A stretch of 23,874 nt of DNA from the IMG/VR virus record IMGVR_UViG_3300020477_001483, positions 1-23,874 of that record. One strand, written 5' to 3'. Made by a program: the position numbers and the translations under genes. The notes below the pieces were generated by a model. The model was given only the letters and a program-made list of their open reading frames with translations, made no database searches and was not told the DNA's origin. Below are positions 1 to 23,069 of this stretch, one piece after another. The stretch comes from a virus. Numbering within the stretch: position 1 is the stretch's first letter; each line of letters opens with the position of its first letter.

Positions 1-1579
1 ACGCCTGGTCGCTGCTGCGCGCCCATGTGGCATTAGTTGTTACCGGAGACGTCTCGCCCCTCATCATAGGCTCGTCTCCGCCCTCGCAGTTGCCGTAGTC
101 GATCAACTGGCCGCAGTTGATTACAAAGTTGCCAGAAAGGCTTGCTCTGTCACACGAGCTGGCGGCGATCTTAACCCCAACGTCCGCATGCTCAATGTGG
201 TTGTTCGCGATGCTTACGTCGTCCGTGTCTGAATGGACCAAAACAGCCGGCGCCAACCCCGCCCCCACGTGCCAGTCGTGAACGTCCCTTATCAGGTTTC
301 CCGAAATTTCAGCGGTAGACCCGTCCCGGCCCCCCGAGGTCGAGATGGCACTGCAAACAGAGTCCGGAGCCGTTTGGGCGACTGCCCGGATGTTCTCAAC
401 AGTGTTGTTCGCTATGGACGCGTTTTTTGAGCCAAATACATAAATCCCCCCGAGGTTGATAGTCCCGGGTCTAGAGTTAATCAGGTTGGATATTGTGTTA
501 TCCGCCACCACAAACCGTGGCGAATTACCCACGACGATGCCCTCCGTGTGCTGCTTGTCTGCGGCAGCGCTCATCGAGATTGTGTTCCAGGCAGCCTGGC
601 CCGTGCAGTGTTCCAGGACGACGCCACAGATTCCTATCTGTAGATCACACTCCCTAACTGCCAAATCGTCGCAGTTATCTGCCCTAATTGCAGCATACGA
701 CCGTATATCAGGGTCAGGGTACACGCGGGCCAAGTCGTCATCACATTCGACGGAACTCACAACAAATCGATCTGCATAATTCAGGCCTATGTCTTCCAAA
801 TGGCGGGGGCTCGAGGACCACGTCTTCGACGCTGGGTAGGACGGAGCAGCCGACCGCTTGATCTTGAGATCGCGAATCTCCGAGCCAACTATTTCAGAGC
901 CATCGCTCCCCATGGCTTCTATTGCAGAAACACCGGCGGCCGGATCCAGCACCGTTGCCTTTCCTGACCCCTCGAGGATGGAGTTGGACAACATCTCAAT
1001 GGGGGATGGAAGTATGAAGGTCCCCGGCGACAGACGAACGATGCCACCTCCGAAAGCTCCTGACAGGTATCTGATGGCGGCATTTACCTCAACATCGTCA
1101 TCCGTCCCGTCACACAGGTAGTCAGAGTCGTCGGTCCACGTAGAAGATCCAACGATCACCTCGGGCACCGACTTGGTTCCAGTGCCGGCAAAGACTTGAT
1201 CACCGTCGGAATCAACATAGAGGCGGCCTATAAACCGCGCCCCGGTAATCGGGTGGTAGTTGTGGAAGTCATTGTCAGTGGACTGAACGGGGCCGGTGGC
1301 GTCCACCTCGAACTCGCCAGCAGAAGTCAAGAAGATGTAGAAGTGGCCCTGGTCGCGGTGCAGTAGCCACATGGAGTCGTCTATCAGGGTCTCTTCGTCG
1401 ATTACCACTTGCTGGCCATTAACATTGGCCGCGCCTGGCCCCACCTTCACCAGGTTGGGTGCCTCCCAAGTGACCTTGAAGCCAGCACCAAACCCAGGGG
1501 GCAGGCCAGTAGCCATGGCCTCCACGTTGGACATGTGGGCGTAATTCTGAGCTGCAAGCAGCTGCTCGTAGCTAGGCAC
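1..1579 (-). CDS. Tailspike / tail fibre with right-handed beta-helix (3' end outside window)
   Basis: At least 526 codons are open on the minus strand and the frame runs off the left edge, so the C-terminus is missing. I chose the GTG at 1579 because it overlaps the TAG of the upstream gene by one base (TAGTG); an in-frame ATG lies 15 codons further in. Residues 1-145 form an N-terminal region that would attach to the virion. From about residue 148 there is the classic entry to a pectate-lyase-like fold (CDGTDDDVEVNAAI, then GGGIVRLSPGTF). Short beta-coil turns follow, with repeated asparagine-rich steps such as SNSILEGSG, VADNTISNL, ASIANNTVENI and VSIANNHIEHA. In phages this fold usually binds or cleaves a host surface polysaccharide. 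Its place last in the virion gene series fits a receptor-binding protein. The fold is clear; the substrate cannot be read. Confidence 0.8.
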   Translation of the reverse strand, partial: MPSYEQLLAAQNYAHMSNVEAMATGLPPGFGAGFKVTWEAPNLVKVGPGAANVNGQQVVIDEETLIDDSMWLLHRDQGHFYIFLTSAGEFEVDATGPVQSTDNDFHNYHPITGARFIGRLYVDSDGDQVFAGTGTKSVPEVIVGSSTWTDDSDYLCDGTDDDVEVNAAIRYLSGAFGGGIVRLSPGTFILPSPIEMLSNSILEGSGKATVLDPAAGVSAIEAMGSDGSEIVGSEIRDLKIKRSAAPSYPASKTWSSSPRHLEDIGLNYADRFVVSSVECDDDLARVYPDPDIRSYAAIRADNCDDLAVRECDLQIGICGVVLEHCTGQAAWNTISMSAAADKQHTEGIVVGNSPRFVVADNTISNLINSRPGTINLGGIYVFGSKNASIANNTVENIRAVAQTAPDSVCSAISTSGGRDGSTAEISGNLIRDVHDWHVGAGLAPAVLVHSDTDDVSIANNHIEHADVGVKIAASSCDRASLSGNFVINCGQLIDYGNCEGGDEPMMRGETSPVTTNATWARSSDQA

Positions 1580-4500
1580 TACTGGGGTACCAGCCTCTGG
1601 TTCTCGAGCAGTCTGCGCTGTCTGCGTTCGTTGCTTACTTGCTGGAAGCCTGGCAATTGTCTACGAGACAGGTTCCTGAGGCGCTCGGCCTCCTGCCTGA
1701 TCTCTTCCGCTCTCCGTCTCTGCCTATCCTCTTCGTCAAACTCGCGGAGCTTGGTGCCCATAAGGAACGCCATGGAGCGAAGCATCTTGGCAAAGGCCTT
1801 GTTGTAGTCGCGTTCGGAGCTGACCTCCTCCACCACGTCAGCTACGCCTCGGTCAAACACCACCCCCAGGGACTCGGCCGACTCAATGACGGACCCGATG
1901 GTGCGAACCATGGGTAGCATGTTGTCCATAATCCGCTCCACCTCTCCGTCCATGACAACGGTGCCGTCCTCTTTGATGCGCATCTTGATGCCGTCTTCAT
2001 AGCCGGCAAGGCGCATCAGACCATCCATGAACCCGAAAGACTCACGGTTCTCGTTGAAGGCCTCTATGATCCGCTTAGAGATGCCGGTCTGGAATATCTT
2101 TGGAGCAATCTCCTCCTCGCGGATGTCCCGTTGCTTGAATATGTTGGCTCCGCGCTCCCCAATGCCCACCTCCATAATGGTCTTGATTACCGGGTGCGAA
2201 GCTGACAGCACCTCGTGTAGGCCCTCGCCAAGGTCAAGCGCGGGCAGAAACTCACCTGGCTCCCAGAACAACGGGATGTTGTTGATGTCCTGGTAGGCGA
2301 AGAAGGGATCAAAGAGCAGGGCCTTTCCCGTGTCTCTGTCTTTCCACACCGGGAACACGCCGAGGTTCTGCTCCCAGCCCTCAAGCAACCTGAAGTCTAC
2401 GTCCTCGTCATGAACGGACGCTCCCGCTTGACCGGGCAAGTCTATGCCAAGGGCCCCGCTGATCTGTTCTGTCAGCCCGCCAACCGCGGACTGTCCCAGC
2501 CGGTGAACCTTGGGCAGCGTGGAGTACATGTTGCCGTGAAGGACCAGGCCTGAAAGCTGGTTGGCGATGTTCTTTCTCATCCACGTATAGAACGGGATGA
2601 TGTTGCGCATGACGTTCTGCTCGAATGGCGTCAGATCGTCATAGTCCAGGAACCACTTGCGGGCCTCGCGAGCCGCGTACTCTGCCCCACCTCGCACACC
2701 AAGCGCTGCCCGGTAGTCCAAGAGGTAGCTCTGCATGCGGGCCGTGTTCTCTATCCAGTCACCAACGTACTGAGAGCCCCTGAACAGAGGGTTGTTGAGG
2801 ACACGAGACTCTTTGGTAAGCCCCAGCGGGTCTACCTCGCGGGTGAACGAACCTCGAGGAACTATCGCCCCCAGGCCCTCTGCTTCTTCCGCTATCTCCC
2901 TGAGAGTCTTGTTTCCTATCCGCTTGTTGAGCCTGCGGGCAACCCACCCTTCTGACACGTTCAGATTGTTGGTCAGGAAGTCGAGGTACTTGTCCTTGTG
3001 CAGGGCGTATACCGTAGACACGTAGGCATCCGCCTTGACCCGTGGGTCCATCCAGCGAAGCCCATGCTTCAGGTACCCCGTCATCTCGTTGGACAGGGAG
3101 TTACGGATGTGGAAGCGGGGAGTGAGGGTGGCGAACCCCTTCCAGAACCTGGTGATCCACGCCCAATATCGGCGCAGTGCAGTAGCTCCCTCGTTGGTGC
3201 TGGTGGCGTCATAGACCCGCTCAATGATCTGGGCCATGTCCTCGTCGAACACGTAGTCCTCAAGGGCGGGATCGTTAACCATGCGGATGTTGAGGGCGCG
3301 GATGTTGCCCAGGGCATTCCGGGCCTGCGGAGGTATCTCCGAAGCCTTCAGACCAAACTCGCGGAACTGTCGGATCATGTTGCCGCGAGCCATCACTCGG
3401 GCGTGGGCCTGCATCCTCATCTTTAGGGCCTCGCCCAAGTCGATCTCTATGTCCGACCAGCCCTTGTTCTCGATCAGGTCATCGAGCACCTGGTCCTTGG
3501 ACTTGCCAGTTCTGGTCAAGTACTCACCAAGGCTGTCACCAAGAGCCCAGCTGAGGTTGCGCTTGTTCAGCTCTACGTGGTCTTCAGGGCTTAGGTTCCT
3601 GCGTTGAGTAAAGCCTGGAGTACGAGATCCGATGGGCCCGCCCTGGACCGGCCTGGGGTCATCAAGGAACCGAATGGGGAAGTAGTTCAGGGTCTCGCCA
3701 AAGGACTGAATGATTCCCTCGTCAGCCAGAGAGAGCTCGGCCTCCCTGATCTGGCGCATTAGGGTCTCAATCTTCTCGAGAGCCTCGCTGGCGGCAGGGT
3801 CGTCACCGAAACCCGCCAAAATATCTTGGGCCGAGTCGGCTATCTCCTCCGTGCTCCGCCTTCTGGCAGTGTCTGCGCGGAACAGGGAGGTCCTGATCTT
3901 GCTGGACTGGTCGTCTGACAGACCCTGCATGATCTGATCTACAGCCTGAGCGCCCTGCCGGATAGCCTGGTGCATACCCAGGTCGTGCTGCCGCATCTTG
4001 GCGTGTCTGATCTGCTCGAATGGTGTGCGCAGAAAGCCGAACTGCTTGCGCAGGGCCCCAATAACACCGAGCTCCTTGATGGGCTTGCCAATAAGGCCTC
4101 TGACCGCATCAACCGGCCCACCGTTCAGCAGGCCCCACCACGCATCTCCGAACCTCTGCCCCGGACGGGTCTGTCCAAAGGCTGCGCGCCCGTGTTCAAA
4201 AACCTGTCTACCGGCCCTCATGGGGGCGTCAAGCAGTCTTCCGAGGGACCCTGGCACGCGGATGCCCATGAACCTCGCCTCGCGCCGTCCTGCGCCCGCA
4301 AAGCCCTCGTCAATGTCCTTCTGAATGCTCCGCAGGTGGGGGTCGCCCAAAACTTCTCGAGTCAGCCTGCCGTCAAAAGCCCTCGCTGCATCGGTAGCAT
4401 CGGGATAGTCCCTGGCCAGCAGGTTGTTCATGCGAGTTTGCAAGTCTCTCTGAAGACCGGCCTCGAACTCGGCTCCACCTCTACCTCGGGTAGCGCCAGG

Positions 4501-5223
4501 AGCATCCATAGCCCTGCGGAAGTTCTCGTTGTATATGTCCCGGACCGCTTTCTTCTGGGTGGTACTCAGGCCCCGCAGCATGTCCTCGGGCTTTCCCTTG
4601 CGGACACTGTTGGCCACGCGAGCCCCAAGCCTCTGCGCCAGCTCAGGGGCGCTCTCCTTGAGGGCTACACGGGTAGCGGTCCAGGCAAACTCTGCGGCAG
4701 CAGCTCGAGCAACTGAACCAGCGCCAAATGTCAGATAGGTAGTGGGGTCGAGAAGTACGTCCGCTACGAAACCAACGGCCTTCTGGCCAAAGGTCCGCTC
4801 TTCTTTGGGAGTTCCCTCGAAGAAGACGTCAGTGAAGGACAGCGGCCGGCCGCGTCTGCCGCCAGAGAAGCCAGCCTGGACCCCAGAGACTATACCATCC
4901 CATATGCCCGTGACTTCATTCTTGGCCTCTTCCGACAGGGGGGTGCCCCAGTTCATAGACTCCTTGATTTCTTGAGCTATGTTGGCAGTAACAAACTGCC
5001 CGGTCTGGAGCAGGTTGAAGATGAACTGAAGGGGGCGTATGCGCTCGCGGGGCTCGTCGACAGCCTCTGTTGCCTGAGGTATGTAGTTCTGCTGAAGGTC
5101 GCGCTGAGCAGGAGTCAGGCCGGTGCGCAGACGCTGAGCAGTCTCGCGAAACCTAAGGAAGTCGGCCCTGTTTCTTCTCGGGTTGTTCCTTAGCTGCCGA
5201 AGGAGCTCAAGGCGGTCCGACAT
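1579..5223 (-). CDS. Very large virion protein, probable DNA-ejection (internal virion) protein
   Basis: 1214 residues, ATG start, 10 bases after the upstream stop. Near residues 150-185 there is a weakly hydrophobic stretch reading FVADVLLDPTTYLTFGAG. A basic aromatic region lies around 686-715 (WAWITRFWKGFATLTPRF, then IRNSLSNEMTGYL), and around 870-890 there is IIPFYTWMRKNIANQLSGL. From memory, large proteins with these blocks are common in uncultured phages and are usually annotated only as hypothetical or as internal virion proteins. The C-terminus (about the last 70 residues) is charged and probably a coiled coil. Its size, its position between helical virion proteins and the tailspike, and the amphipathic segments suggest a role in carrying DNA through the host envelope, as for T7 gp15/gp16. 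That role is inference. I see no lytic transglycosylase motif. Confidence 0.65.
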   Translation of the reverse strand: MSDRLELLRQLRNNPRRNRADFLRFRETAQRLRTGLTPAQRDLQQNYIPQATEAVDEPRERIRPLQFIFNLLQTGQFVTANIAQEIKESMNWGTPLSEEAKNEVTGIWDGIVSGVQAGFSGGRRGRPLSFTDVFFEGTPKEERTFGQKAVGFVADVLLDPTTYLTFGAGSVARAAAAEFAWTATRVALKESAPELAQRLGARVANSVRKGKPEDMLRGLSTTQKKAVRDIYNENFRRAMDAPGATRGRGGAEFEAGLQRDLQTRMNNLLARDYPDATDAARAFDGRLTREVLGDPHLRSIQKDIDEGFAGAGRREARFMGIRVPGSLGRLLDAPMRAGRQVFEHGRAAFGQTRPGQRFGDAWWGLLNGGPVDAVRGLIGKPIKELGVIGALRKQFGFLRTPFEQIRHAKMRQHDLGMHQAIRQGAQAVDQIMQGLSDDQSSKIRTSLFRADTARRRSTEEIADSAQDILAGFGDDPAASEALEKIETLMRQIREAELSLADEGIIQSFGETLNYFPIRFLDDPRPVQGGPIGSRTPGFTQRRNLSPEDHVELNKRNLSWALGDSLGEYLTRTGKSKDQVLDDLIENKGWSDIEIDLGEALKMRMQAHARVMARGNMIRQFREFGLKASEIPPQARNALGNIRALNIRMVNDPALEDYVFDEDMAQIIERVYDATSTNEGATALRRYWAWITRFWKGFATLTPRFHIRNSLSNEMTGYLKHGLRWMDPRVKADAYVSTVYALHKDKYLDFLTNNLNVSEGWVARRLNKRIGNKTLREIAEEAEGLGAIVPRGSFTREVDPLGLTKESRVLNNPLFRGSQYVGDWIENTARMQSYLLDYRAALGVRGGAEYAAREARKWFLDYDDLTPFEQNVMRNIIPFYTWMRKNIANQLSGLVLHGNMYSTLPKVHRLGQSAVGGLTEQISGALGIDLPGQAGASVHDEDVDFRLLEGWEQNLGVFPVWKDRDTGKALLFDPFFAYQDINNIPLFWEPGEFLPALDLGEGLHEVLSASHPVIKTIMEVGIGERGANIFKQRDIREEEIAPKIFQTGISKRIIEAFNENRESFGFMDGLMRLAGYEDGIKMRIKEDGTVVMDGEVERIMDNMLPMVRTIGSVIESAESLGVVFDRGVADVVEEVSSERDYNKAFAKMLRSMAFLMGTKLREFDEEDRQRRRAEEIRQEAERLRNLSRRQLPGFQQVSNERRQRRLLENQRLVPQ

Positions 5224-6407: not shown

Positions 6408-7874
6408 TTACTCTCCCAATCCTTCCAGAAACTCTATGCCCGCCTCGATCAAGATCGGGATTACAGCAATAGCAACCGCCTGCAGCCATTCCCAATCGCC
6501 TGAGCCACTCCGATCGATACCTTCCCAGCCTAGACTCTCCTGATCCAAAATTGGCTGCACGAGCTGGTCGTACTCGGCCTGCCAAATGTCATAGGCCGTG
6601 GACTCAATGCCCATGGCCGTCATGGCAGCCTTGGTAACATTGTCTACGTTGGCCACAATAAGGGAAAGCTCGGCCCCGAACTTCTGGAGCTGAACTTGAG
6701 CATTCCGGTATACCGATTCGATCTCGGCCATGATGGCTCGCTCTCTGCGGTCCATCCACTGCGTGGCAGACAGAGCGCCTCGGTTCACCGCAGCCTGGAG
6801 TTGAGCGTTCTCAGCCTGGAAAGAGATCATCGCTCTCTCAAAGTTCTGGTTGTCCACCTCCATCTGCCGCCGCAGATCTTGGTTGGCTATAGTGGCGGTG
6901 AAATCGTGAGTTGCCGCCATGGCCCTTCCGAACGACTCGCCCCCCACGTCGCCCATCATCCGGGCAGCAAGATTCACGTCAGCGGCGCGAGCCTGCTGAA
7001 GCTGCCTCTGCTGAAGCTCCGTTCGAGCTACACCGCCATATTTGGGTACTCTGGTTATGTCCTTAGATTTCGCTATCGCTTGTTGATAGCCGAGCAAATC
7101 AGCCTCGACATCGCCGTCATCATTTAATGTCCAGAAGCCAGCATCTATGGCCGCCTGCGTCTGCCTCTCAAGCTGCTCCGCGGAAGTGAGTTCAGAACCA
7201 AGTTCGTCCAGAAGTGCTTTAACAGCGTCCTTTGTGTCGATGTCCGGCACTTCAAGATCTTTAAGCTTTTTGAGCCACTCATCTAGTTGATTTATGTACG
7301 GCTGCATGTCCGCGACGAACGCTTCTGCTGCGTCATCCGCGGCGCCCGCGGCCGATTCAGGAGTTGCTGGGGGCTCGTCAGGAAGATAATCAGGATCGGG
7401 ATCAACGCGGGCGTATTCGCCTCCCCATTTACTGTTGTAGTAAAGGCTCATCCCAGTCGTGTCGCCTTCCCACCAGACCCAGGTATGGTTCCAGGGGTCC
7501 CTCTTATCGATCCTCCACATGCCATGTTCGGTGGGGCCAATATGGTCGCGGTTGGGCCCACCGGCGGCCGCGGAGATCGGATCCCCCAACTGCCATGCGT
7601 AACGATGATTGGTTGCGAAGGCGGGGCCGTTATAATTTCCAACGGTCCGCATATCTTCGTCACTGAAGGCCTGGCGATTGGCCGCAGGTGCGTCTGGGGG
7701 GGGCAAGACATTCTCGGGAGCCCCCTGGCCAGCCGTAGAAAAAGTGGGCCCAGAAAGATCCGGGGGAGCGCCAGCAAGGGTCTTCTTGCCAAAATCCCCG
7801 AACAGATCTTGCATGCCCCGCTTTTTGCCTAACAGACTGCCAAGAGCCTTGTTGTTGCCAAATAGATCGCTCAC
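6408..7874 (-). CDS. Virion protein with disordered N-terminus and hydrophobic C-terminus
   Basis: 488 residues. The GTG start at 7874 overlaps the TGA of the upstream gene by four bases (GTGA), which indicates translational coupling. Residues 1-80 are rich in Gly, Pro and Ala and look disordered. Residues 90-165 are aromatic and polar (many Trp and Tyr). Residues 190-430 are helical with many Gln and Ala. The last 30 residues contain a hydrophobic stretch (LQAVAIAVIPILIEAGIEFL) that could insert into a membrane or pack against other ejection proteins. No named family is recognised. The position between the nozzle-like protein and two other large virion proteins supports an ejection-complex or internal virion role, by inference only. 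Confidence 0.6.
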   Translation of the reverse strand: MSDLFGNNKALGSLLGKKRGMQDLFGDFGKKTLAGAPPDLSGPTFSTAGQGAPENVLPPPDAPAANRQAFSDEDMRTVGNYNGPAFATNHRYAWQLGDPISAAAGGPNRDHIGPTEHGMWRIDKRDPWNHTWVWWEGDTTGMSLYYNSKWGGEYARVDPDPDYLPDEPPATPESAAGAADDAAEAFVADMQPYINQLDEWLKKLKDLEVPDIDTKDAVKALLDELGSELTSAEQLERQTQAAIDAGFWTLNDDGDVEADLLGYQQAIAKSKDITRVPKYGGVARTELQQRQLQQARAADVNLAARMMGDVGGESFGRAMAATHDFTATIANQDLRRQMEVDNQNFERAMISFQAENAQLQAAVNRGALSATQWMDRRERAIMAEIESVYRNAQVQLQKFGAELSLIVANVDNVTKAAMTAMGIESTAYDIWQAEYDQLVQPILDQESLGWEGIDRSGSGDWEWLQAVAIAVIPILIEAGIEFLEGLGE

Positions 7875-9829
7875 TGCGCCCTCTCCTCCACCTCCAGCGA
7901 CACGCCAAAGAACTTAGCGTGATGCTGGGTGTCGTGGTTCACGCCGAACCCGAAGTTGTATCCATCCATGCCCGGAGGCACTCCCACCGAAGCCACATGG
8001 ATTCCGGATGCCACTGAAGCGGTAAGAGTAGCGGTAGCGCTGGCCTCCCCGTATTGGTTCTGGGTGAACAGCTTGATCGTGTAGTCATCGCCCCCGGCTG
8101 CCGATACGTCCGCCACGCGGAACGTAGGCCTTCGGAACACCTTGGGCCTGTGGTACGAACCAAAGTCGTAATACTTGGACTGCACGTCGTAGTTAATGGT
8201 GGCCGACGCGTTGATTTTGTCCACCGTTCCGCTGTAAAGCTTCAGGATGTATACGTTGGTGTTGTCTATGCCCAGCAACAGATCATTGTCATCTGCCGAT
8301 GACTGCCACTGGAACTGACTAATGCCCACCCCGGTGTGTCTGAAAAAGGATACACGTGCATCGCCCATAGGGTCTGGCCGAAGCGTGTCGGGATCAAACT
8401 CCAGGATGCGGGAATTAGTGGGGAACGAGAATAGGATCTTACCCTTCCAGGATACCGCCGCGGCATCAGTCAACGTCCAAGAGTCGATGTCGGACTGAAT
8501 ATGCTTACTGATCTTGGTGGCCTTCATGCCGTCCCAACCGTAAATCCCATCTCGAGAAATGAAGTACATGACCCGGCCGTGAACCACCGCCCCGCGCTTG
8601 CTTACTCCGCCGACCTTGGACTGGTCCCTATCAACGGACACGTTCTTCAGAGACGTGCCAAAAATGGTGTGAATTCCGCTATCCATCAGGACAACCAGGG
8701 CATCTCTTCCCACGCCAGGAACCATGGCTTGAATGGACCCACCGTCGTGGAAGAATTCAAAGTCCCGAGACATCCAGTTAGTCAGCTTCCCAAAAGCGCC
8801 GAACCTAAGCCAGTTCCCCATGCCCAGCCATATCTTTGATCCGTGCTCGGCAACGGTGTCTGGCTTGTATCCCAGGTTGATCTGACGCAAGTACTGGGAG
8901 TGCTTAACGTTCAAGCCCTGGGCGTCCAGCGGGGCAGCTAAGTCGGTCTCCCTGTTCACCGCCCTCCAGCAGAACCTGTTGGTTAACGGCACCCCGAGAG
9001 AAATAGGTCCAGTAGCAAGTAATTGATCTCCGGTGACGGGGTCGAGCGGAAAGTCGAACTCCATGGCCCTGTCGCCGGCTGCAGTCCAAGTCGGCACGTC
9101 GTTAGGCGTGTAGGACACCCAGGTGACAGAAGATCCAATAGAAGCCCGCCCAAGGTATTCAAAGGCGAAGGTGGCGCTGGTAGTGGCCTCCATGTCGAGC
9201 ACCTCGGGCAGGTTGAACGTAAGGTCAGATGCCACCCAGAACCCGGTACCAGTAACGGTGGCTTGGAGCTCAAAGGTGACAGACGAAGAGCTCTGGGCGG
9301 CAGCCGTGTCGGTGCCATAGTTGCCGCTGGCCGTAACAGAGCTGAACTGCCCCGCGTACCAGTAGGCGTCGTCCATGTCCCTGGTATCCAGCCTCTCCAC
9401 GGTATCAACAAACACAGAGGAAGCAGTGGCATAGATAACGGACGGCTGGTCCACTCCATTGACCGCCACCACCTTCTCGCCCAGTCGGGCGAACTGCACG
9501 TCTGATCCTTTGGTAATCGTATAGGACGTAGCAGAGGCGTGAGTGAGAGTAGAGAACGCAGTAGTAGTCCCCACCTCGAAGGCCACATTAACGGTGCCCT
9601 GAACGGCCCTGATGGTCCTCCAGACGCCCTCTATCTTCGCCCTGATAGACCCGAGGGTAAGACTGCCGGTTACCGAGGCGTAACGTGAGTGACCTGCTCT
9701 CTGGTCAAGCCCATCGTTCCATGTCACGTCGTCCGCCTTGAGCATCTCGTTGTCTGCCATGTGCTCAGACGGAACCGAGGTCGCGTAACCTCCGCGGAAG
9801 TCGGCAAAGGAGAAAATGCTCCCCGGCAT
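7871..9829 (-). CDS. Nozzle-like / tail hub beta protein
   Basis: 652 residues. Its ATG follows the TAG of the adaptor gene with no gap. The N-terminus (FADFRGGYATSVPSEHMADNEML, split here by WNDGLDQRAGHSRY) has the layout of phage proteins that begin with a 'gets-a-list-of-defined-points' beta motif and continue as a beta-propeller. Around residues 360-480 there are blade-like repeats: VVLMDSGIHTIFG, RVMYFISRDGIYGWDG and KILFSFPTNSRILEFD. This pattern resembles podovirus nozzle proteins (T7 gp12 or P22 gp10 type), which close the tail channel. The gene directly follows the head-tail adaptor, as expected for that role. Assignment to a precise family would need a structure-based search. Confidence 0.65.
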   Translation of the reverse strand: MPGSIFSFADFRGGYATSVPSEHMADNEMLKADDVTWNDGLDQRAGHSRYASVTGSLTLGSIRAKIEGVWRTIRAVQGTVNVAFEVGTTTAFSTLTHASATSYTITKGSDVQFARLGEKVVAVNGVDQPSVIYATASSVFVDTVERLDTRDMDDAYWYAGQFSSVTASGNYGTDTAAAQSSSSVTFELQATVTGTGFWVASDLTFNLPEVLDMEATTSATFAFEYLGRASIGSSVTWVSYTPNDVPTWTAAGDRAMEFDFPLDPVTGDQLLATGPISLGVPLTNRFCWRAVNRETDLAAPLDAQGLNVKHSQYLRQINLGYKPDTVAEHGSKIWLGMGNWLRFGAFGKLTNWMSRDFEFFHDGGSIQAMVPGVGRDALVVLMDSGIHTIFGTSLKNVSVDRDQSKVGGVSKRGAVVHGRVMYFISRDGIYGWDGMKATKISKHIQSDIDSWTLTDAAAVSWKGKILFSFPTNSRILEFDPDTLRPDPMGDARVSFFRHTGVGISQFQWQSSADDNDLLLGIDNTNVYILKLYSGTVDKINASATINYDVQSKYYDFGSYHRPKVFRRPTFRVADVSAAGGDDYTIKLFTQNQYGEASATATLTASVASGIHVASVGVPPGMDGYNFGFGVNHDTQHHAKFFGVSLEVEERAQ

Positions 9830-12268: not shown

Positions 12269-13219
12269 CTATACGGTGTAGTCCAGGGCCGTGTACTTGA
12301 AGTTGGTCTTGCGCATCTTGCAGCACAGGTTACCAGCCCAAGAGCTGATCTTGATCAGTGCATGCGGGAAGCCAGCCTGCTTCAGGTCGTCCCATGGCTC
12401 GGTCGTAAAATTGAAGTTCGGGTGATACCGAAGCTCAAAGACCGAGGTGTCAATGCCATACAGCCTGTTAGCGGTACAGGCGTAATCCCCCACCACGCTC
12501 GAACGACCGAACTTGATCGCTTCAAACCCCATGTCGGCCATGTTGTTGTCACGGTAGACCCGCTGCGGGTCGGCCAGGGACTCGAACTTGCTGAACAGGT
12601 CACGGGTGGTGACCAAGAGGTCTGGGAAGTTAGGACCGAAAGTCGCATCGTTAATCCGCTTCGAAACGGAGGTTGCAGAACCCCACAGGTGAAGACGGGT
12701 CTCGGAAGTGTCCTCGGCCGCAGCTGCCCATTCGGCGGCATCCGCCACTGCGATGTCGGCATAGGTCGTGCCGGTGTCGATGATGGTGTCAAGACTCGAG
12801 AAAGAATTGTCCGCCTGAGTGGTTGCGTACAGGTCGGTGTTGAACTTGTTCAACATGTCCTGCTGCATTTCCTCAGTCTTGTCGCGAATAAGGTCGATGA
12901 TCTGGGCCTTGCCGGTGTTCTGCACCCGCTCGTCCCAGCTGATCATGTTCTTGCCCACGATGTACTTCCACGCCAGGATTCCTGACGTGCGAGTCTCTTT
13001 CTGTTCGTATGTAATCTGCTGGCGCGGGTCCACTGCCTCCGCCAAACCAAGGGTCTGGTACCGGATCGCAAATTGGATGTTGTTACCACCAGAGGTACGA
13101 ACGTTGTTTCGTTGTTTGAGGCGACTATAGAACGGCGACTTCTCGTAGACCTGCTGCGTAAGCGTCTTATCGAAGAAGTTGCTCGATACTGAGTTTGCCT
13201 CGTCCCTAGTCAGAGCCAT
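12269..13219 (-). CDS. Major capsid protein
   Basis: 316 residues, ATG start with an AGGA ribosome site eight bases upstream. It follows the scaffold gene. The N-terminal arm is helical (EANSVSSNFFDKTLTQQVYE), and the sequence continues with an 'E-loop'-like strand region (NNIQFAIRYQTLGLAEAVDP) and a long spine-like helix (IIDLIRDKTEEMQQDML). The C-terminus includes short strands typical of an axial domain. Length and order (portal, scaffold, capsid, decoration) fit an HK97-fold capsid protein. The fold is inferred from composition and context rather than from a diagnostic motif. There is no sign of an N-terminal protease cleavage site. Confidence 0.85.
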   Translation of the reverse strand: MALTRDEANSVSSNFFDKTLTQQVYEKSPFYSRLKQRNNVRTSGGNNIQFAIRYQTLGLAEAVDPRQQITYEQKETRTSGILAWKYIVGKNMISWDERVQNTGKAQIIDLIRDKTEEMQQDMLNKFNTDLYATTQADNSFSSLDTIIDTGTTYADIAVADAAEWAAAAEDTSETRLHLWGSATSVSKRINDATFGPNFPDLLVTTRDLFSKFESLADPQRVYRDNNMADMGFEAIKFGRSSVVGDYACTANRLYGIDTSVFELRYHPNFNFTTEPWDDLKQAGFPHALIKISSWAGNLCCKMRKTNFKYTALDYTV

Positions 13220-14674: not shown

Positions 14675-16462
14675 CTACGCTACCCCCTCGTTAATTTCGC
14701 CCACCGGCCGCGGCCCACTCACGGGGGCTGGCTGGGGCGGATTTTGAGCTTGCTGCATTGCGCTCATGTTCTGCTGCATTTCTTCGATTATCTGCTTCCC
14801 GCGAGGTATGCGAAGGGCATCAATCGTGGCTTTCCAGATCGGCATGGAAGTAACCGGGTTACCGGCCGCCATCTCGAGCAAGCGAAGGAACATGTTGGCC
14901 TTGGACTGCTTGTCCATAGGCAGTGAGGAATTAGTGTCGACGGTCAGGTCGAAGGCCGCGTATATCGGGTCTACTTCTCCCCACTGCTCAATAAACGCCT
15001 GCATCTCCGCGTCTATCTGAGCGCTCTCGTCAGGGCCCTCTTGGCCATCCCTGGCTCCCACGGCCTCTCTGGCAAACTGGTTGCGGTTGCTAACCGTGAA
15101 GCGCTGGCTCTTACCGTCCACGCTGACCTGGAACTCGCGCAGGTCCGTATAGAACTGCTGCATGATCGAAATCATCATGTAAAGCAGACGGGCCACAGAG
15201 GACTCGTAGTTGCGGACACGCTGCCGCGTACGGGTGTAGGCCGACTCTATCAGCGTGCTGATCTCAGTGGCGGACTGGCGCTGGGACTTCCCGACTTGAC
15301 CCTTGGATACGTCGGTCACCCCGCTAACCTCTTCCATGAGGCGCTGGATAGCTGACATCAGCATGGGCACCGTCTGGTTTACCGCAGGTGCTTCCATTTT
15401 CTCCAAGGGCCTCTGGGCGCCGGTCTGGGTGGCCTCCATGACGCCGCCACCTCGCTTCAACTGATCCTTGACCTTCTCGGACTCCAGGCCGGAAGCCGGG
15501 TCCACGATCCACACCGGATCGGCGTAGTAGGTCATCCACTTGTGCATGAGCTGCAACGAGTGGTTAAAGGAGAGGTTCATCTCCTCGATTTGGTCTGGCT
15601 CGGACATGCCGTAGAACTCGTGAGGAACGGTGTAGTCGTAGAGCTCTACGTAGGGAGGCATGCCGTGACGGAAAGGAGATGGCCGCTCGTCAAGGATGAC
15701 CCCGCTGGTCATGGTAACGATCTTGCCGTTGGGGAACTTGGGCCTGGCCTTCTTGTTGGCCGTCTTCTCTTTGGTCTCCTTGCCCTCGTCGGTTACGTAG
15801 TACTCCTCAGCCTCGGAGTCACGCATCCAGACCTCATAGACCTTGATCTTGTGCTCCTCTAGCTCCCAGTCCTGCATACTCTGCAGCTCCGGGTTGTCTT
15901 GCTCGCTGACCACCTCCCCCCACTTCTCGGGGTACTTGAAGCGCAGCCAGGACATGGGCTTCTCCATGCGCTCGCCGCACATCGGGGTGTCTTTGAGGGA
16001 GGTATAGCCGGGGGCATTAAAGAATGTCCGCGGATCCACGTTGTCCACCGCCAGGTCATCCTCCGACCTGTTCCAGCGGACTTTGACGATGCCGATCTTC
16101 ATGATCAGCGCGTCCTTGACCCAGCGATAGGAGATGTCATCCATCCCCAGCTTGTCCCACAGGTACTCGGCGGCCAGGGAGAAGGCCTCGAGGTGGTTCT
16201 GCATGAAGCTCTGGCGAGCTCGCACAGACCAGATGGGTCGGTTGTCGGTGAGGAGCGGAGCTACCGTCTCTACGGTCGAGAAGATGTAGTTGGCGTGGAT
16301 CTTGGAGTCGTTCTCGTCTAGCCGGCCCTCGTTCCACCACTCGCCCTTGTACCGCTTCATATAGCGGTTCATGGCGTTCAGGGTGGATTCGTTGGCGGTG
16401 AAGATGCGGTCTACCCGACCGGATAGCTTCGAAGCAAACTTATCGTCTTTCTGCTTAGCCAA
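14675..16462 (-). CDS. Portal protein
   Basis: 595 residues. The TTG start at 16462 overlaps the stop of the zinc-ribbon gene by eight bases. The N-terminal half has features of P22/T7-like portals: YMKRYKGEWWNEGRLDENDS, IFSTVETVAPLLTDNRPIWS, and VKDALIMKIGIVKVRWN followed by VDPRTFFNAPG. The long helix of the stem region includes IEEMNLSFNHSLQLMHKWMT, and SATEISTLIESAYTRTRQRV forms the wing/crown transition. The C-terminus is Gln/Pro rich. It would form the dodecameric gate through which the terminase pumps DNA. The terminase is three kilobases upstream, separated by the sugar cassette. The family is clear. Confidence 0.9.
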   Translation of the reverse strand: MAKQKDDKFASKLSGRVDRIFTANESTLNAMNRYMKRYKGEWWNEGRLDENDSKIHANYIFSTVETVAPLLTDNRPIWSVRARQSFMQNHLEAFSLAAEYLWDKLGMDDISYRWVKDALIMKIGIVKVRWNRSEDDLAVDNVDPRTFFNAPGYTSLKDTPMCGERMEKPMSWLRFKYPEKWGEVVSEQDNPELQSMQDWELEEHKIKVYEVWMRDSEAEEYYVTDEGKETKEKTANKKARPKFPNGKIVTMTSGVILDERPSPFRHGMPPYVELYDYTVPHEFYGMSEPDQIEEMNLSFNHSLQLMHKWMTYYADPVWIVDPASGLESEKVKDQLKRGGGVMEATQTGAQRPLEKMEAPAVNQTVPMLMSAIQRLMEEVSGVTDVSKGQVGKSQRQSATEISTLIESAYTRTRQRVRNYESSVARLLYMMISIMQQFYTDLREFQVSVDGKSQRFTVSNRNQFAREAVGARDGQEGPDESAQIDAEMQAFIEQWGEVDPIYAAFDLTVDTNSSLPMDKQSKANMFLRLLEMAAGNPVTSMPIWKATIDALRIPRGKQIIEEMQQNMSAMQQAQNPPQPAPVSGPRPVGEINEGVA

Positions 16463-16700
16463 CCTTGGTCAGGTTCTCCTTGCGGAGGTAGTTGTCACGG
16501 TCAGCCTTGGTTGGGAAGTGTTGGCCAAGCATCCGATCGTACCCCGCCTCGAACTCCATGATCTGTCCCATGCTGCCGATAGAGTAGATGCGCTCTGCCT
16601 TCTCACCGCATTGCGGGCACACGAGCTGCGAATCTTGCAGGTGTTTCACGAATACTTCTTGCGCCCCGTGGGAGGGGCAGCGAAGGTCCACTAACGGCAA
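16455..16700 (-). CDS. FmdB-like zinc-ribbon protein
   Basis: 81 residues. The TTG start at 16700 gives MPLVDLRCPSHG, the expected opening of FmdB-like zinc ribbons; an in-frame GTG three codons later is the alternative. Metal ligands are C8 with H11 (a CxxH instead of the usual CxxC) and C28-x2-C31. Residues 40-80 are a charged C-terminal tail. Single-ribbon proteins of this type are common just before the portal gene in phages; their function is unknown, perhaps regulation or assembly. It starts 11 bases after the cytidylyltransferase gene ends and overlaps the portal start, so it is part of the same operon. Confidence 0.7.
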   Translation of the reverse strand: MPLVDLRCPSHGAQEVFVKHLQDSQLVCPQCGEKAERIYSIGSMGQIMEFEAGYDRMLGQHFPTKADRDNYLRKENLTKVG

Positions 16701-16711
16701 TCTGGTCAGCC

Positions 16712-17503
16712 CTAAACCCGTCCCGCCGTTGCTGGGGCGACTTTCTCTGCTGCTCCATTAGCCTTTGGATTGCCGACGCCGGAGCCCCAAGCTGAAGCAA
16801 AAGCTCGAAAATGTTCACTCACCCTCTCCGCTATCTCCTGGTACCCGTCCCCAGGTTGAATTTCGGAATAAACGGCCCGGACAAAGTTAAGATCGTCCTC
16901 CGTGTCCACGGCAAGCTTTATCCAGCTGTAATCCTTAACAGCATCTACGTTGTTATGCAACCACAAATGTCCACTTTTGTATACCCCGTATGTTACGTGC
17001 TCTCTCCAGAACGGATCGTCCTTAGCCATCCGCTCCATGCGGTAAAGGGTGTCGCGGTGAAAAACCTCCACATCAAAGCCCACGGGGAACCTGCGTCGCA
17101 GCACATTGCTACTAAAGTCATACGGGCCCTGGAGAGCATTGACGCACAGGTCGATAACCTTGGGGTCGAGCAGGGGGCAGTCGGCGGTGAGGCGAACGAT
17201 GATGTCGCAGTTCACCCATTCGGCCGCCTTAACGTAGCGATCAAGCACGTCGGTGGAGTCGCCGCGATACCAGAAATCGAGGGCATTCCTTGATCCTGCG
17301 ATGTCCGATATCCGCTTATCGGGAGTGGCAACAACCACCGCATCCACCGTCTCTGCTTCATGGGCCCTAGCTATGACATGCTCGAGAAGGGAAGCCCCGC
17401 CAATCTTTCGGAGTACCTTGCCGGGCAGTCGGGAAGAGTTCTCTCTGGCCTGGATGATTGCGGCCACGTAGGGGCGCGGGCGGATATTCGGGTCTTGGAT
17501 CAT
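16712..17503 (-). CDS. spsF: SpsF-type sugar cytidylyltransferase
   Basis: Nucleotidyltransferase-fold enzyme of the SpsF/CMP-sugar-synthetase-like family (COG1861). Counting from the ATG at 17503 (263 residues), the signature is IIQARENSSRLPGK at residues 16-29 and RLTADCPLLDP at 104-114 (usually TGDCP, here TAD), with AVDTEDDLNFV near 210. These bind the nucleotide and metal. The ATG at 17503 makes a four-base ATGA overlap with the methylase stop; an in-frame ATG at 17521 would add six residues but has no ribosome site. The last about 30 residues (after ERVSEH) are an Ala/Gly-rich tail beyond the usual domain. The family often sits in nonulosonic-acid and flagellin-glycan clusters, and its exact substrate is usually unknown. 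Confidence 0.8.
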   Translation of the reverse strand: MIQDPNIRPRPYVAAIIQARENSSRLPGKVLRKIGGASLLEHVIARAHEAETVDAVVVATPDKRISDIAGSRNALDFWYRGDSTDVLDRYVKAAEWVNCDIIVRLTADCPLLDPKVIDLCVNALQGPYDFSSNVLRRRFPVGFDVEVFHRDTLYRMERMAKDDPFWREHVTYGVYKSGHLWLHNNVDAVKDYSWIKLAVDTEDDLNFVRAVYSEIQPGDGYQEIAERVSEHFRAFASAWGSGVGNPKANGAAEKVAPATAGRV

Positions 17504-18093
17504 TTGCGGAACAGGCTCCATGAGCAGTTATCGAATCCCATGTCTTTCTCCAATTCACCGGACTGCTGACGCTCTAACCCGAGCTCGCCATAGAGGGTCG
17601 AGTAAGGCCCCTTGAACAGGCTCATGTTCTTGCCGTGATAGGAGATCTCCTCGAACTCCTCCGCTTCGTACTCGATGCATAGCACCCACTTTCTGGAGCA
17701 CCTGGCTGCCTGCCGCATGACATCTCTGACCAGGTCAGGGTGTTGGTGAATGAGCACGCCAGCCGTGAAGACTAGGTCGAAGTAACCATCCCTAAACGGA
17801 ATGTCATGCCCCGAAGCCTTGACCACCTGTACGTCAGGCAAAGCGGAGGCGAACCTGAGCGCGTCATCGTTCAGGTCTATGCCCCACGCCTCGGTATGGT
17901 TCCATATATGCTCCAAGTTGAGGCCGGCGCCACAACCTACCTCAAGGGTTCGATCTGGCTGGAGCGAGCTCATCATCTCCTCCCAGAACACCATTCGTTG
18001 CGGTGCAGACTTGGGGTTACGGTCGGTGTAGGCGCTTCCAAAGGAGCCGGTCCACAACTGCTCCTGGTAGGTCAGGTGATCCTTACTGGCCAT
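17500..18093 (-). CDS. SAM-dependent methylase, pseudaminic-acid-associated type
   Basis: 197 residues, ATG start overlapping the WbuZ-like gene by 22 bases. The fold is class I Rossmann: motif I is LEVGCGAGLN at residues 50-59, the acidic residue binding the ribose is D73 in WGIDLNDDAL, and the motif IV region is FDLVFTAGVLIHQHP. The N-terminus, QEQLWTGSFGSAYTDRN, matches my memory of the 'pseudaminic acid biosynthesis-associated methylase' family (TIGR03587), whose members begin with a similar W.G.FG..Y..RN block. Members lie in bacterial clusters for nonulosonic acids. Methyl transfer to a sugar amidine or hydroxyl is plausible; the acceptor is not shown by the sequence. A general small-molecule methylase is the alternative. 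Confidence 0.75.
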   Translation of the reverse strand: MASKDHLTYQEQLWTGSFGSAYTDRNPKSAPQRMVFWEEMMSSLQPDRTLEVGCGAGLNLEHIWNHTEAWGIDLNDDALRFASALPDVQVVKASGHDIPFRDGYFDLVFTAGVLIHQHPDLVRDVMRQAARCSRKWVLCIEYEAEEFEEISYHGKNMSLFKGPYSTLYGELGLERQQSGELEKDMGFDNCSWSLFRK

Positions 18094-18752
18094 CCCTTAC
18101 CCCCAAGGTGCTCTTTGGCCTCAAGCGGAGTGTGCTGGGTGAACTGCCAAATTGCTCCAGCCGCGACAGCGTCAGCCCCCACATCAAGAGCAGCGTGCAT
18201 ATCGTCAAACCCGCCACAGCCAGAAGAAGCAACAACGGGGCAGTCGGCCACACCCGCCATCCGCTCGATCCGCTCAAGGTCATAGCCACCCATAGTCCCA
18301 TCTAATTCTCTGGACTGAACGATAACTTCACCGAAATGCTCCATGTAAGGTTCGTAATCACCTCTCCCAGAAAGCACACCAACAACAGACTGACGGCCAA
18401 AGGCGTCAGCAATATCTCCAGCCAGGTGCCATCCTCTTGAGCCCAAAGCTACTTTGTCAGCCCCACATTCCCTAAAAAGGCGTCTCGCAGTGCAGACACT
18501 GTCTATTCCTCCTCCAACGGTAAGCGGAACAAAATTAGCGGAGGACATGCGACGAATCTGTTCCAGATCCGGGCCGCGGCCCATGTCCCTCGCGTCGATA
18601 TCGAAAACGACAAGCTCATCCACTTCGCGCAAATTGAAAACACGCACAGTCGCGGAAGGGTTTCCTACCACCCTATCCGAAACGAACTGTTCGCCTTTCA
18701 CCAGCTTCCCACGTCTAAGCAGCAGCGTGGGTATTATGCGCCTTGCGAGCAA
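18072..18752 (-). CDS. wbuZ: WbuZ / HisF2-type partner of sugar amidotransferase
   Basis: 226 residues, TTG start at 18752, 38 bases inside the amidotransferase gene; the start is fixed by the family-like opening MLARRIIPTLLL. This is a HisF-like TIM barrel with the phosphate-binding loops LTVGGGI (77-83) and VASSGCGGFDD (174-184), and ADAVAAGAIWQF near the end. True HisF needs Asp11 and Asp130 as acid and base. Here residue 11 is Leu, and the second position aligns with Ser128 (GVLSGR), so histidine-type cyclisation is not expected. The LLL opening is characteristic of the glycosyl-amidation subfamily (WbuZ, TIGR03572). In that subfamily the barrel is thought to pass ammonia from a HisH partner to the WbpG-type enzyme. 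No HisH is present here. Confidence 0.85.
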   Translation of the reverse strand: MLARRIIPTLLLRRGKLVKGEQFVSDRVVGNPSATVRVFNLREVDELVVFDIDARDMGRGPDLEQIRRMSSANFVPLTVGGGIDSVCTARRLFRECGADKVALGSRGWHLAGDIADAFGRQSVVGVLSGRGDYEPYMEHFGEVIVQSRELDGTMGGYDLERIERMAGVADCPVVASSGCGGFDDMHAALDVGADAVAAGAIWQFTQHTPLEAKEHLGGKGWPVRIT

Positions 18753-19803
18753 GGTTGGTTACCGACCCCACGAAGATGTCTCGGTTGACGAACTCCTCGC
18801 AGATGTCCATGAACTCATCCACGGTGAGCCCCAGTGGCCGAAGAATGTCCTCCAGGAAGATGTTCAGGTACTTCCAGGGGAATTGTCCGTCCCATTCTTC
18901 CACGTGACGAAGGGCCTTCTCCCGAGTCCACCGCCCGCGCCGTACATGTGTGCAGGCAATATCGGTGGCGCGACCGAATCCGAACTTGAGGTACTTGAAG
19001 AAATCGTGGATACCAGTCTGGTGGTTATCCAGATTCTCATATCTGAACCCGTGCCCCTCGACTCCCCGGTACCACCACTCGAACCCATGGCTGCGAGCAA
19101 CGCTCGCGTTTCGGAATCCGTCCCAGGGAAAAAAGTAACCCATGAAGACTCCACTGATTCCCTCCACGTCAGTCGGATAGGTGTACGGGGCGACATCCTG
19201 CTTCGACAAACCAAGATCGGTCACCCTCAGTCCTAACAACCCACCGAATTCTTCCAGCCACGATCGGTCCAAATGCCGGCGACCACTCTGCGGGCCACCA
19301 TATTCGTGCTGAGGGTTCTCCCCCCACACTATCGTCGGGATCGAGTACTGCCGTGCGACACGGACCGGAGTAGTAAAGATGGATACGTGTTCCGGCCATG
19401 AAATGTCGCCAACGGTCTCGAGGCAAAACTTGTTCAACCCCGCGCGCGCCTTGGCATTGGGGGCAACCTCCACCAAGTCGCAGAGGTTCCGAATGTTATC
19501 CAGATTCCTGCGGCCAATGGCGGAAAGGTCGCAAGTGCGGGCATTGACAGCAAGTGGGTTGAATCCCAGCTCCTGGATCTTCAGAACCTGGGCAGTAGAG
19601 TCCTTGCCGCCACTAACAGGAACCACGCAGTCGTACTGACCGCCGCCGCCCTCATGAATGAGTGCAATGAACTCCCTCTCTCGCTCGGCCCAGGGAATAT
19701 CTTTTCTCGCCTCGAAGTTCCTGCACGCACTGCATACTCCTTCTTCGTCGAACGATATGTCCGGCCTGGTATCCGGCATCACACATCGGCTACAATACCT
19801 CAC
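18715..19803 (-). CDS. wbpG: N-acetyl sugar amidotransferase (WbpG / WbuX / PseA family)
   Basis: 362 residues. The GTG start at 19803 overlaps the terminase TGA by four bases (GTGA). The N-terminal zinc site is C4-x2-C7 and C24-x2-C27 (MRYCSRCVMPDTRP, then GVCSACRNFE). The PP-loop that binds ATP is SGGKDS at residues 64-69. Further family blocks include IVWGENPQHEYGG and GYFFPWDGF. The enzyme adenylates an acetamido group and replaces the oxygen by nitrogen, giving an acetamidino sugar (Pseudomonas B-band O-antigen, Campylobacter Pse5Ac7Am and Leg derivatives). The length is normal for the family and both motif sets are intact, so it is likely active. The identity of the sugar cannot be read from the sequence. 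Confidence 0.9.
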   Translation of the reverse strand: MRYCSRCVMPDTRPDISFDEEGVCSACRNFEARKDIPWAEREREFIALIHEGGGGQYDCVVPVSGGKDSTAQVLKIQELGFNPLAVNARTCDLSAIGRRNLDNIRNLCDLVEVAPNAKARAGLNKFCLETVGDISWPEHVSIFTTPVRVARQYSIPTIVWGENPQHEYGGPQSGRRHLDRSWLEEFGGLLGLRVTDLGLSKQDVAPYTYPTDVEGISGVFMGYFFPWDGFRNASVARSHGFEWWYRGVEGHGFRYENLDNHQTGIHDFFKYLKFGFGRATDIACTHVRRGRWTREKALRHVEEWDGQFPWKYLNIFLEDILRPLGLTVDEFMDICEEFVNRDIFVGSVTNLARKAHNTHAAA

Positions 19804-21428
19804 ACCTTAACCCTCTCAGACCAGCTGCTGGCGCTTCTCTGCGCCTCTGCCAATTTATCCAGCAACGTGAATCCCAATCCTCCTGCGTGAAGCGTTTCGT
19901 ACAGCGGGTTCTCCCAGGACTTGAAAGCGAATGACTCCACCAGCTGGAAGATCATCGCCACCGAGTCAGCCAAGTCGTCTTTGCCCTCGTAATTCGGGTT
20001 GATCTTCTCCATCTGCTCAAAGAGGCGATGGAGGTTGGGGTGAAAGAAGCACTTACCCTGCCTCACCCACGACCCAAGCGTGATGTTGATTCGCTGGAAC
20101 TTGTTGATCCGCTTGATCGGCATAGAAATGAGGGGCAGGGATATCTTGCGGCCCTGGCTCTGCTCCCACTGGGCGTGGGTCATGCGGATGACAGTGGCCA
20201 GATGTTCCTGCAAGCCAGCCTCCACCCCGATCTTCAGCGGCTTGTAGCGCTCGTTCAGCTGAAGGACGATGCGGGCTATCTCCTCGCCGCCCTTCTTCAC
20301 GCCAAAGCACTCCACCACGTACATCCAGCCCTTGGAGTTGATGGCGGCCACACAGAAGGCCGTCTCATCGGAGTACTTCTTCACCGAAGCGGCGGGGTCA
20401 ACGGTGATGTAGTACTTGTATACCTCGTCCTTGCCCGGAAGGGTGCCGCTGTAAGTAGGTTGCGGCGGCGGGAACAACTGATCCTCCGCCGGGATCGGGT
20501 TGATCATGATCTGGGTCGAGTAGAGGTAGTTTCCCATCCTCTTCTTCAGCCGCTCATGCATCTTGAGCGTGTAGAACGAGTAGATGGGCTTGCCGTTGAC
20601 TATTCCGGGTCGCTTGTAGATGTGCTTTCCGTAGATCCCTTCCTGTTCGATGTAGTTGTAGAGATCCGAGTAATGGTAGGGGGTGCCGGTAACGGTTTCA
20701 GTGCCACCAGGCTCGAGAACGCCCTGGATGTATCCGTACCACTCGACAACCTTTCGATTTCCCTCAGGGGTATTGGCGTCGTCTTCGTTGAGAATATCGT
20801 CGTAATAGTGTTCGTCGAAGTGCTTTCCCGTGACAGTTGCACCAGCACCGTAAACTTCAAGTTGGTTCTCCTGGGGCACGGTCTCGCCGTCCCTCTTCAT
20901 AGTCAGCATGTTAGCCGTCACACGGGCCCAGCCGTTCATGTTCTTGCCGGGGTCAGGAATGACATCGGAGAAGATGGCCATGAGGGATGGCGTCTGCAGC
21001 ATGCGAATGATGGACTTGAGTTCAGACTCCACCAGGTTCGAGGTCTTGGAGTAGAGGGCGATGCGGATATTGTCGGGGTTTCGGAGGATCTGCTGGATAA
21101 TCCTGACCTTGACCCAGAACGTCTTCGCATGGCGCCGGGGGATCAGGACCATCTTGTCGTTGTCCTGCTCCAGGACGCCGCAGAGCCAACGATGGAGCGA
21201 AGGGTCAACGATGGACTTGCCGCGACGGTCCTTTGCGGCTGACAGGCCGAGCACATCGTTGCCGAGGTAAAAGAGGTCGGCCAGCGACTTCCACCTCATC
21301 CAGAGGAGGTTGGCGTTGTCCCAGAGCTCCGGCTCCTTGGAGGGCAGCTCTTTCGTGAGCCCCTCTTTCCAGCCAAGGCCCTCAAGTATTTCGTTGAGCT
21401 TGGCCTTGTCTTGGCTCTTAGAGGTCAT
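19800..21428 (-). CDS. terL: Terminase large subunit
   Basis: 542 residues, ATG start overlapping the upstream gene by 11 bases. The ATPase half has a Walker A-like RRHAKT at 98-103 (preceded by MVLIP), the adenine-side block IRIALYSKTS at 121-130, and a Walker B region FDEHYYDDIL at 204-213. The coupling motif is TVTGTPYHYSD (245-255). The RNase-H-like nuclease has D344 (ITVDPAAS), D354, E403 (KIGVEAG) and D488 (KDDLADS). It cuts concatemers and powers DNA packaging into the procapsid through the portal. In most phages the portal gene follows nearly directly; here four sugar genes and a zinc ribbon lie between. Confidence 0.93.
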   Translation of the reverse strand: MTSKSQDKAKLNEILEGLGWKEGLTKELPSKEPELWDNANLLWMRWKSLADLFYLGNDVLGLSAAKDRRGKSIVDPSLHRWLCGVLEQDNDKMVLIPRRHAKTFWVKVRIIQQILRNPDNIRIALYSKTSNLVESELKSIIRMLQTPSLMAIFSDVIPDPGKNMNGWARVTANMLTMKRDGETVPQENQLEVYGAGATVTGKHFDEHYYDDILNEDDANTPEGNRKVVEWYGYIQGVLEPGGTETVTGTPYHYSDLYNYIEQEGIYGKHIYKRPGIVNGKPIYSFYTLKMHERLKKRMGNYLYSTQIMINPIPAEDQLFPPPQPTYSGTLPGKDEVYKYYITVDPAASVKKYSDETAFCVAAINSKGWMYVVECFGVKKGGEEIARIVLQLNERYKPLKIGVEAGLQEHLATVIRMTHAQWEQSQGRKISLPLISMPIKRINKFQRINITLGSWVRQGKCFFHPNLHRLFEQMEKINPNYEGKDDLADSVAMIFQLVESFAFKSWENPLYETLHAGGLGFTLLDKLAEAQRSASSWSERVKV

Positions 21429-22523: not shown

Positions 22524-23069
22524 CTATGCAGGTGAGGCCGTGGCTGCATCTGGCCAGAACTTAGCCGGGTCCAGCCTTCCTGTGTAACCGCCTGGATATC
22601 CGGGCGTGGTGATCTCCATGTGGCAGTGAGGGCCGGTGGAGAAGCCGGTATCGCCGATCCTGGAGAGGGCTTCCCCCTCTGTGACAGGGCCGTGGTTACG
22701 CGAATAGCACTCAACGAACTTGGCCGGATTGTGGTTGTCCCGCCATTTGGTCATGTCGCCGATTTCGCCAACAGGGCAGTGAGCGAACAGCCACCAGCGG
22801 TCTTTGGCCAACAAGATCGAGCACAGCCCGTATCGGTCGGCGAAGTACCAGGAATAAGGGCGGATTTCGGGTGGCAGAGTCCCATGGTCCTTCTTTACGT
22901 CCTTATCAGAGCGCAGCATGAACAGGGAGAAGTGCACTCCGTCTTCCGGGGCCAGTATGGTGGCAGCCTCGACGTCCGCCACATCCCACGCATTGTGGTT
23001 CTTGCGGCCACTGACATGGCCATTGAAGTCGTCGCTTACAATGGCGTCTTCTGAGAAGGGGTAGGTCAT
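22524..23069 (-). CDS. M23-type metallopeptidase, probable endolysin
   Basis: 181 residues, ATG start with GAGGA about ten bases upstream. It carries the ligands of M23 (LytM-like) peptidases in order: H25 and D29 in KNHNAWDVAD, a third His in LFAHC (H97), and H148-x-H150 in GFSTGPHCHMEI. APEDG at 41-44 fits the glycine turn after the second strand. There is no signal peptide or transmembrane segment, so the protein would act in the cytoplasm until released or be carried in the virion. It would cut peptidoglycan cross-bridges at lysis. No holin is visible next to it. Placement before the terminase genes is unusual but seen in some phages. Confidence 0.8.
   Translation of the reverse strand: MTYPFSEDAIVSDDFNGHVSGRKNHNAWDVADVEAATILAPEDGVHFSLFMLRSDKDVKKDHGTLPPEIRPYSWYFADRYGLCSILLAKDRWWLFAHCPVGEIGDMTKWRDNHNPAKFVECYSRNHGPVTEGEALSRIGDTGFSTGPHCHMEITTPGYPGGYTGRLDPAKFWPDAATASPA

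Follow-up and report, generated by a model that had tools for sequence, protein, structure and literature searches.

This locus raises the question of why a phage would carry a run of sugar-modifying genes between its large terminase gene (terL) and its portal gene, and what those genes could do for it. Nonulosonic acids are capping sugars of flagella, capsules, and lipopolysaccharides, and they act as phage receptors or shields. With moderate confidence, we read the four genes as an accessory cassette that finishes a nonulosonic acid supplied by the host or by unseen phage genes, with ammonia taken from the host or used free, and so alters the surface glycan of the host. The window, that is, the whole stretch of DNA analyzed, corresponds to a 23,874-base IMG/VR record that is classed as linear and is thus possibly a fragment; the features discussed are collected in Table 1.

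Table 1. Coordinates of the cassette genes and other features of the window
Feature	Position	Strand	Size and best matches
Large terminase (terL), upstream flank	19800..21428	-	phrog_38 2e-61
WbuX/WbpG/PseA/PtmG-type N-acetyl sugar amidotransferase	18715..19803	-	362 aa; TIGR03573 9e-82
HisF2/WbuZ-like (beta-alpha)8 subunit, shortened	18072..18752	-	226 aa; TIGR03572 1e-48, below cut-off
SAM methyltransferase, "pseudaminic acid biosynthesis-associated methylase" family	17500..18093	-	TIGR03587 8e-34
SpsF-type cytidylyltransferase, CMP-nonulosonate synthetase candidate	16712..17521	-	PF02348 5e-27
FmdB-type zinc-ribbon gene	16455..16700	-	TIGR02605 3e-7
Portal, P22/SU10-like, downstream flank	14675..16462	-	PF16510 7.5e-24; phrog_156 7e-41
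Major head protein	12269..13219	-	phrog_9953 6e-37
Right-handed beta-helix protein, candidate tailspike	2..1579	-	PF13229 1e-7, PF05048 6e-7

Gene order and authenticity of the locus

The four-gene cassette described in an earlier note on this DNA is real and runs exactly from position 19803 to position 16712 on the minus strand. Its placement between terL and portal stood, but it does not lie directly beside the portal gene, from which an FmdB-type gene separates it; because the FmdB gene is also present in cassette-free relatives, it belongs to an ordinary terL-FmdB-portal order and falls outside the cassette. The GTG start of wbuX overlaps the terL stop by 4 nt, and successive frames from terL on overlap by 4, 38, 22, and 22 nt. 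No promoter-like site was found between terL and the portal start, and a search for a promoter or terminator belonging to the cassette itself returned such sites no more commonly than in shuffled sequences. The overlapping frames, together with the lack of a promoter-like site in that interval, indicate that the cassette is probably transcribed with the late genes, and the position of the head protein gene places it within the late structural run. Rfam and tRNA scans of the window gave no match. Elsewhere on the minus strand, a candidate endolysin with a weak M23 peptidase match lies upstream of terL (22524-23069), and two large late-region open reading frames (ORFs) have a weak match to an internal virion protein (7871-9829) or no informative match (1579-5223; 1,214 aa). 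The candidate tailspike gene runs off the left end of the window.

That the cassette might be an assembly chimera, as the earlier note had considered, or recent bacterial debris could seem in keeping with its restricted occurrence, the exact arrangement at this site being found in only two genus-level groups. A search of metagenome-virus contigs recovered the four genes in order at the terL-portal site in three further IMG/VR contigs. One of these (IMGVR 3300030329_005402) is 99.8% identical to the window over 18.1 kb spanning the cassette locus; the other two (3300025122_000275 and 3300038433_001165) keep the order terL-WbuX-HisF2-methylase-SpsF-FmdB-portal, with identities from terL to portal of 78, 70, 67, 47, 69, 69, and 68%, the methylase (47%) being the least conserved of the four cassette genes. 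Independent contigs at 99.8% and at 70% (WbuX) identity rule out chimerism or contamination, and the cassette evolves under purifying selection, the pN/pS values of its genes being 0.31 to 0.42 (portal, 0.36; terL, 0.21; head protein, 0.14). We therefore assign a negligible probability to an artifactual origin.

The cassette is absent from all 11 related contigs (L048 and L102 to L111) that a terL profile scan found, with terL 32 to 43% identical; each has terL and portal, and at most about 0.6 kb separates terL from FmdB or, in L110, where FmdB was not detected, from portal. These relatives bear out the expectation that most such phages have at most a small gene between terL and portal, and because their site is empty, the cassette is an accessory element cleanly inserted in a single subgroup. 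In another contig, an ORF of about 50 codons resembling a ribbon-helix-helix protein lies between terL and wbuX (L003:3188-3340); it is absent from the window, where the latter two genes overlap.

Identities of the four enzymes

The amidotransferase scores 275.2 bits against its family model, TIGR03573 (curated cut-off, 203.2). It has the PP-loop SGGKDS and an N-terminal CxxC...CxxC arrangement, and C4, C7, C24, C27, and S64 to S69 are invariant across 20 sequences. Structure prediction, proposed in the earlier note as a check, gave a WbuX model (pLDDT, 88.4) whose best fold match is the Legionella N-acetyl sugar amidotransferase 8wex (TM score, 0.79; next match, about 0.3) and a HisF2 model (pLDDT, 92.6) whose closest fold is HisF.

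HisF2 matches His_biosynth (E = 2e-31) and scores 165.6 bits against TIGR03572 (cut-off, 299.7) and 159.8 bits against NF038364 (cut-off, 310). We call it HisF2-like only, since it falls below both cut-offs; a bacterial HisF2 homolog adjoining WbuX, at 281.5, is also under the WbuZ cut-off. The methylase, at 117.5 bits, is slightly above the cut-off of TIGR03587 (112.05), a family whose name derives from gene neighborhood. SpsF has a CTP_transf_3 domain (PF02348, 95.5 bits), and the solved chain nearest to it is 6oew ("Cytidylyltransferase"). It is below the cut-off of the PseF model TIGR03584 (32.1 bits; cut-off, 205.7) and far under those of KdsB-type models, and NeuA models gave no match.

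Bacterial counterparts and the proposed pathway

The bacterial counterparts of the cassette genes sit in pseudaminic- or legionaminic-acid clusters. They occur as PseB-WbuX-HisH2-HisF2-SpsF-methylase in a Thalassospira cluster (L013), as methylase-SpsF-WbuX-HisH2-HisF2 in a member of the Myxococcota (L012), and with PseC and PseG in a third cluster (L016). The pseudaminic-acid clusters L012, L013, and L075 resemble the phage in having the four gene families side by side, but they carry HisH2 next to a full-length HisF2, whereas the window clade has no HisH2 at the locus and a HisF2 about 25 residues short. A search via terL for a provirus or host signal in 289 class-mates of Thalassospira returned distant generic terminases only.

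Among characterized systems, PtmG amidinates CMP-Leg5Ac7Ac and PtmH then N-methylates the product, the same order of amidotransferase and methyltransferase (PtmH/ORF8) acting on CMP-legionaminate (PMC3766260). The PtmG/PtmH pair of Campylobacter (ORF28/ORF8 in Legionella) and PseA/WbpG thus share with the phage an amidotransferase and methyltransferase whose expected substrate is a CMP-nonulosonate; the phage set differs in that it belongs to a late operon of packaging genes, includes SpsF and a HisF2 of reduced length, and has no HisH2. The PtmG/PtmH order, together with bacterial clusters that include PseB, PseC, or PseG, suggests that the cassette represents the last steps of a pathway: activation, amidination, and probably N-methylation. 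The gene identities and sugar-amidination reading given in the earlier note, as well as its proposal that a precursor made elsewhere is finished, are likewise supported by the family models, the match to 8wex, and these clusters, as predictions from sequence and models.

We infer the enzymatic steps, where the ammonia comes from, which glycan is targeted, and what the phage gains as follows. In this podovirus-like phage, the cassette sits between terL and the FmdB-portal pair and would be expressed with the late genes. SpsF would convert a nonulosonic acid of the pseudaminic or legionaminic type, supplied either by the host or by phage genes that are unseen, to the CMP-activated form; WbuX, with ammonia arriving via HisF2, would change an N-acetyl substituent to an acetamidino one; and the methylase would then probably N-methylate the amidine, the reaction reported for PtmH and Legionella ORF8. 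HisF2, having no glutaminase of its own, would be an ammonia conduit that docks on host HisH2 or HisH or takes free ammonia. Host transferases would use the altered CMP-sugar, the host surface glycan would change late in infection, and the changed glycan may bind less spent debris or fewer superinfecting phages.

Since other N-acetyl sugars are substrates of WbuX/WbpG family members in certain O-antigens, the cassette could instead modify such a sugar, or a nucleotide, rather than a nonulosonate. We consider this improbable, because the nearest bacterial clusters with both methylase and SpsF are of the Pse type and several other phage modules carry NeuB/PseI.

Related modules in other phages

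At least five further phage lineages in IMG/VR (L026/L037, L039/L040, L042, L043/L044, and L027 to L029) have modules similar to the cassette, some of them including a nonulosonic-acid synthase. Like the cassette, these modules combine WbuX, HisF2, and a CTP_transf_3 protein, mostly without a GATase domain; several add NeuB/PseI and PseB/PseC- or LegC/NeuC-like genes, their terminases and portals are unrelated to those of the window, and their insertion places differ. NeuB-family synthases were present on 9 of the 16 viral contigs examined. The contigs L027, L028, and L029 (44 to 60 kb) have near-complete legionaminic-type pathways, with NeuB, a LegC-like protein, WbuX, HisF2, and a glycosyltransferase and without GATase; L028 has PseF-, LegC-, NeuC-, and NeuB-like genes with its glycosyltransferase. 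In L042 and L043/L044, NeuB/PseI, SpsF, WbuX, and HisF2 accompany PseC- or PseB-like genes (PseB-, PseC-, or dehydratase-like in L042 and L043), and the nonulosonate run of L043 ends directly at the terminase gene.

A tblastn search of 50,697 INPHARED records with WbuX, SpsF, and the methylase found none of them. HisF2 did have matches there, about 33% identical, but the annotated ones are named hisF, and we set these aside as looking like ordinary bacterial hisF. We found no report of phage-encoded amidinated nonulosonates in the open-licence literature, where a review names pseI among phage genes (PMC6359870). The cassette is thus a short representative of a class of nonulosonate modules that recurs among phages and is apparently undescribed in that literature. 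With finishing enzymes among the packaging genes of a phage and similar modules in several unrelated lineages, nonulosonate editing would be a phage strategy that recurs and is directly testable.

Target of the modified sugar

No glycosyltransferase was recognized in the window by family and profile matches, and this, with the beta-helix tailspike candidate, favors host glycans, modified through a host transferase, as the target. The cassette could alternatively serve to decorate the virion itself, with amidinated sugar on capsid or tail proteins masking or tuning them. Its location among late structural genes would suit such a role, as would the pairing of a glycosyltransferase with a fuller pathway in L027 to L029; the lack of a recognized glycosyltransferase in the window speaks against it, and we consider decoration unlikely though worth weighing. 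The contig is a 24-kb fragment, and the remainder of the genome could encode HisH2, NeuB, or a glycosyltransferase.

The lack of a recognized transferase in the window, together with four genes that act on precursors, would also fit a cassette that creates no new surface but mainly drains or poisons the host's pool of nonulosonate or flagellar glycan, as a way to stop motility, for example. A Campylobacter phage protein, Gp047, recognizes acetamidino-pseudaminic acid and targets it on flagella (PMC4690887). Four enzymes under purifying selection, with a complete activated product expected, would be a costly means to that end, and we give pool draining little credence. A change of the host surface, the reading we prefer, has a parallel in serotype-converting modules (P22/Sf gtr) and morons, which are likewise accessory, with a host-glycan change expected and the site empty in relatives. 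The gtr modules encode a glucosyltransferase and flippase, whereas the cassette encodes sugar-finishing enzymes in a late operon, with no promoter of its own seen.

A shortened HisF2 without its glutaminase

In the window clade, the stretch between beta5 and beta6 of HisF2 is 19 residues long and the equivalents of D11 and D130 are absent, with Ser at the D130 position; HisF2 proteins from bacterial WbuX loci have 39 to 44 residues there, and their D130 equivalent is Asp or Glu. The barrel is nevertheless predicted to be intact, and the ammonia-gate residues of HisF (R5/E46/K99/E167) are invariant in 20 of 20 aligned HisF2 sequences. Shortening recurs in the phages L026/L037 (22 to 27 residues) and L043/L044 (26 residues), and HisF2 is unshortened in L039/L040, L042, and L027 to L029 (37 to 45 residues).

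HisH2 adjoins HisF2 in all 33 distinct bacterial WbuX-HisF2 loci (37 sampled minus 4 double entries: L086=L010, L087=L013, L088=L014, and L092=L015), which are mostly from Alphaproteobacteria and not independent. Of the 14 phage contigs that encode both WbuX and HisF2, which may be incomplete, only 2 have a GATase domain (L026 and L037; one of six lineages), although five of those without GATase span 44 to 60 kb. No GATase was found at the locus or elsewhere on the window contig or its relatives G001 to G003. The intact gate residues and barrel in the absence of GATase fit an ammonia conduit that uses a host glutaminase or free ammonia, and because the cassette has no HisH2, the phage probably borrows the nitrogen-supplying part from its host.

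More tentatively, we speculate that several phage lineages repeatedly acquired WbuX-HisF2, dropped the glutaminase, and plug the HisF-type barrel, which in some is pared down toward a mere conduit for ammonia, into host HisH2 or HisH. If so, the phage enzyme would be fully active only where the host already makes amidinated nonulosonates. The missing glutaminase also raises the question of whether HisF2 can function with a foreign glutaminase or with none. On the WbuX tree, the phage contigs fall into six groups, and the switch between phage and bacterial rows occurs separately at least three times. Among bacterial WbuX proteins, the one nearest to that of the phage (59%; L007:8001-9074) has no HisF2 or SpsF nearby and is adjoined by a large ORF that looks PAAR/Rhs-like by eye.
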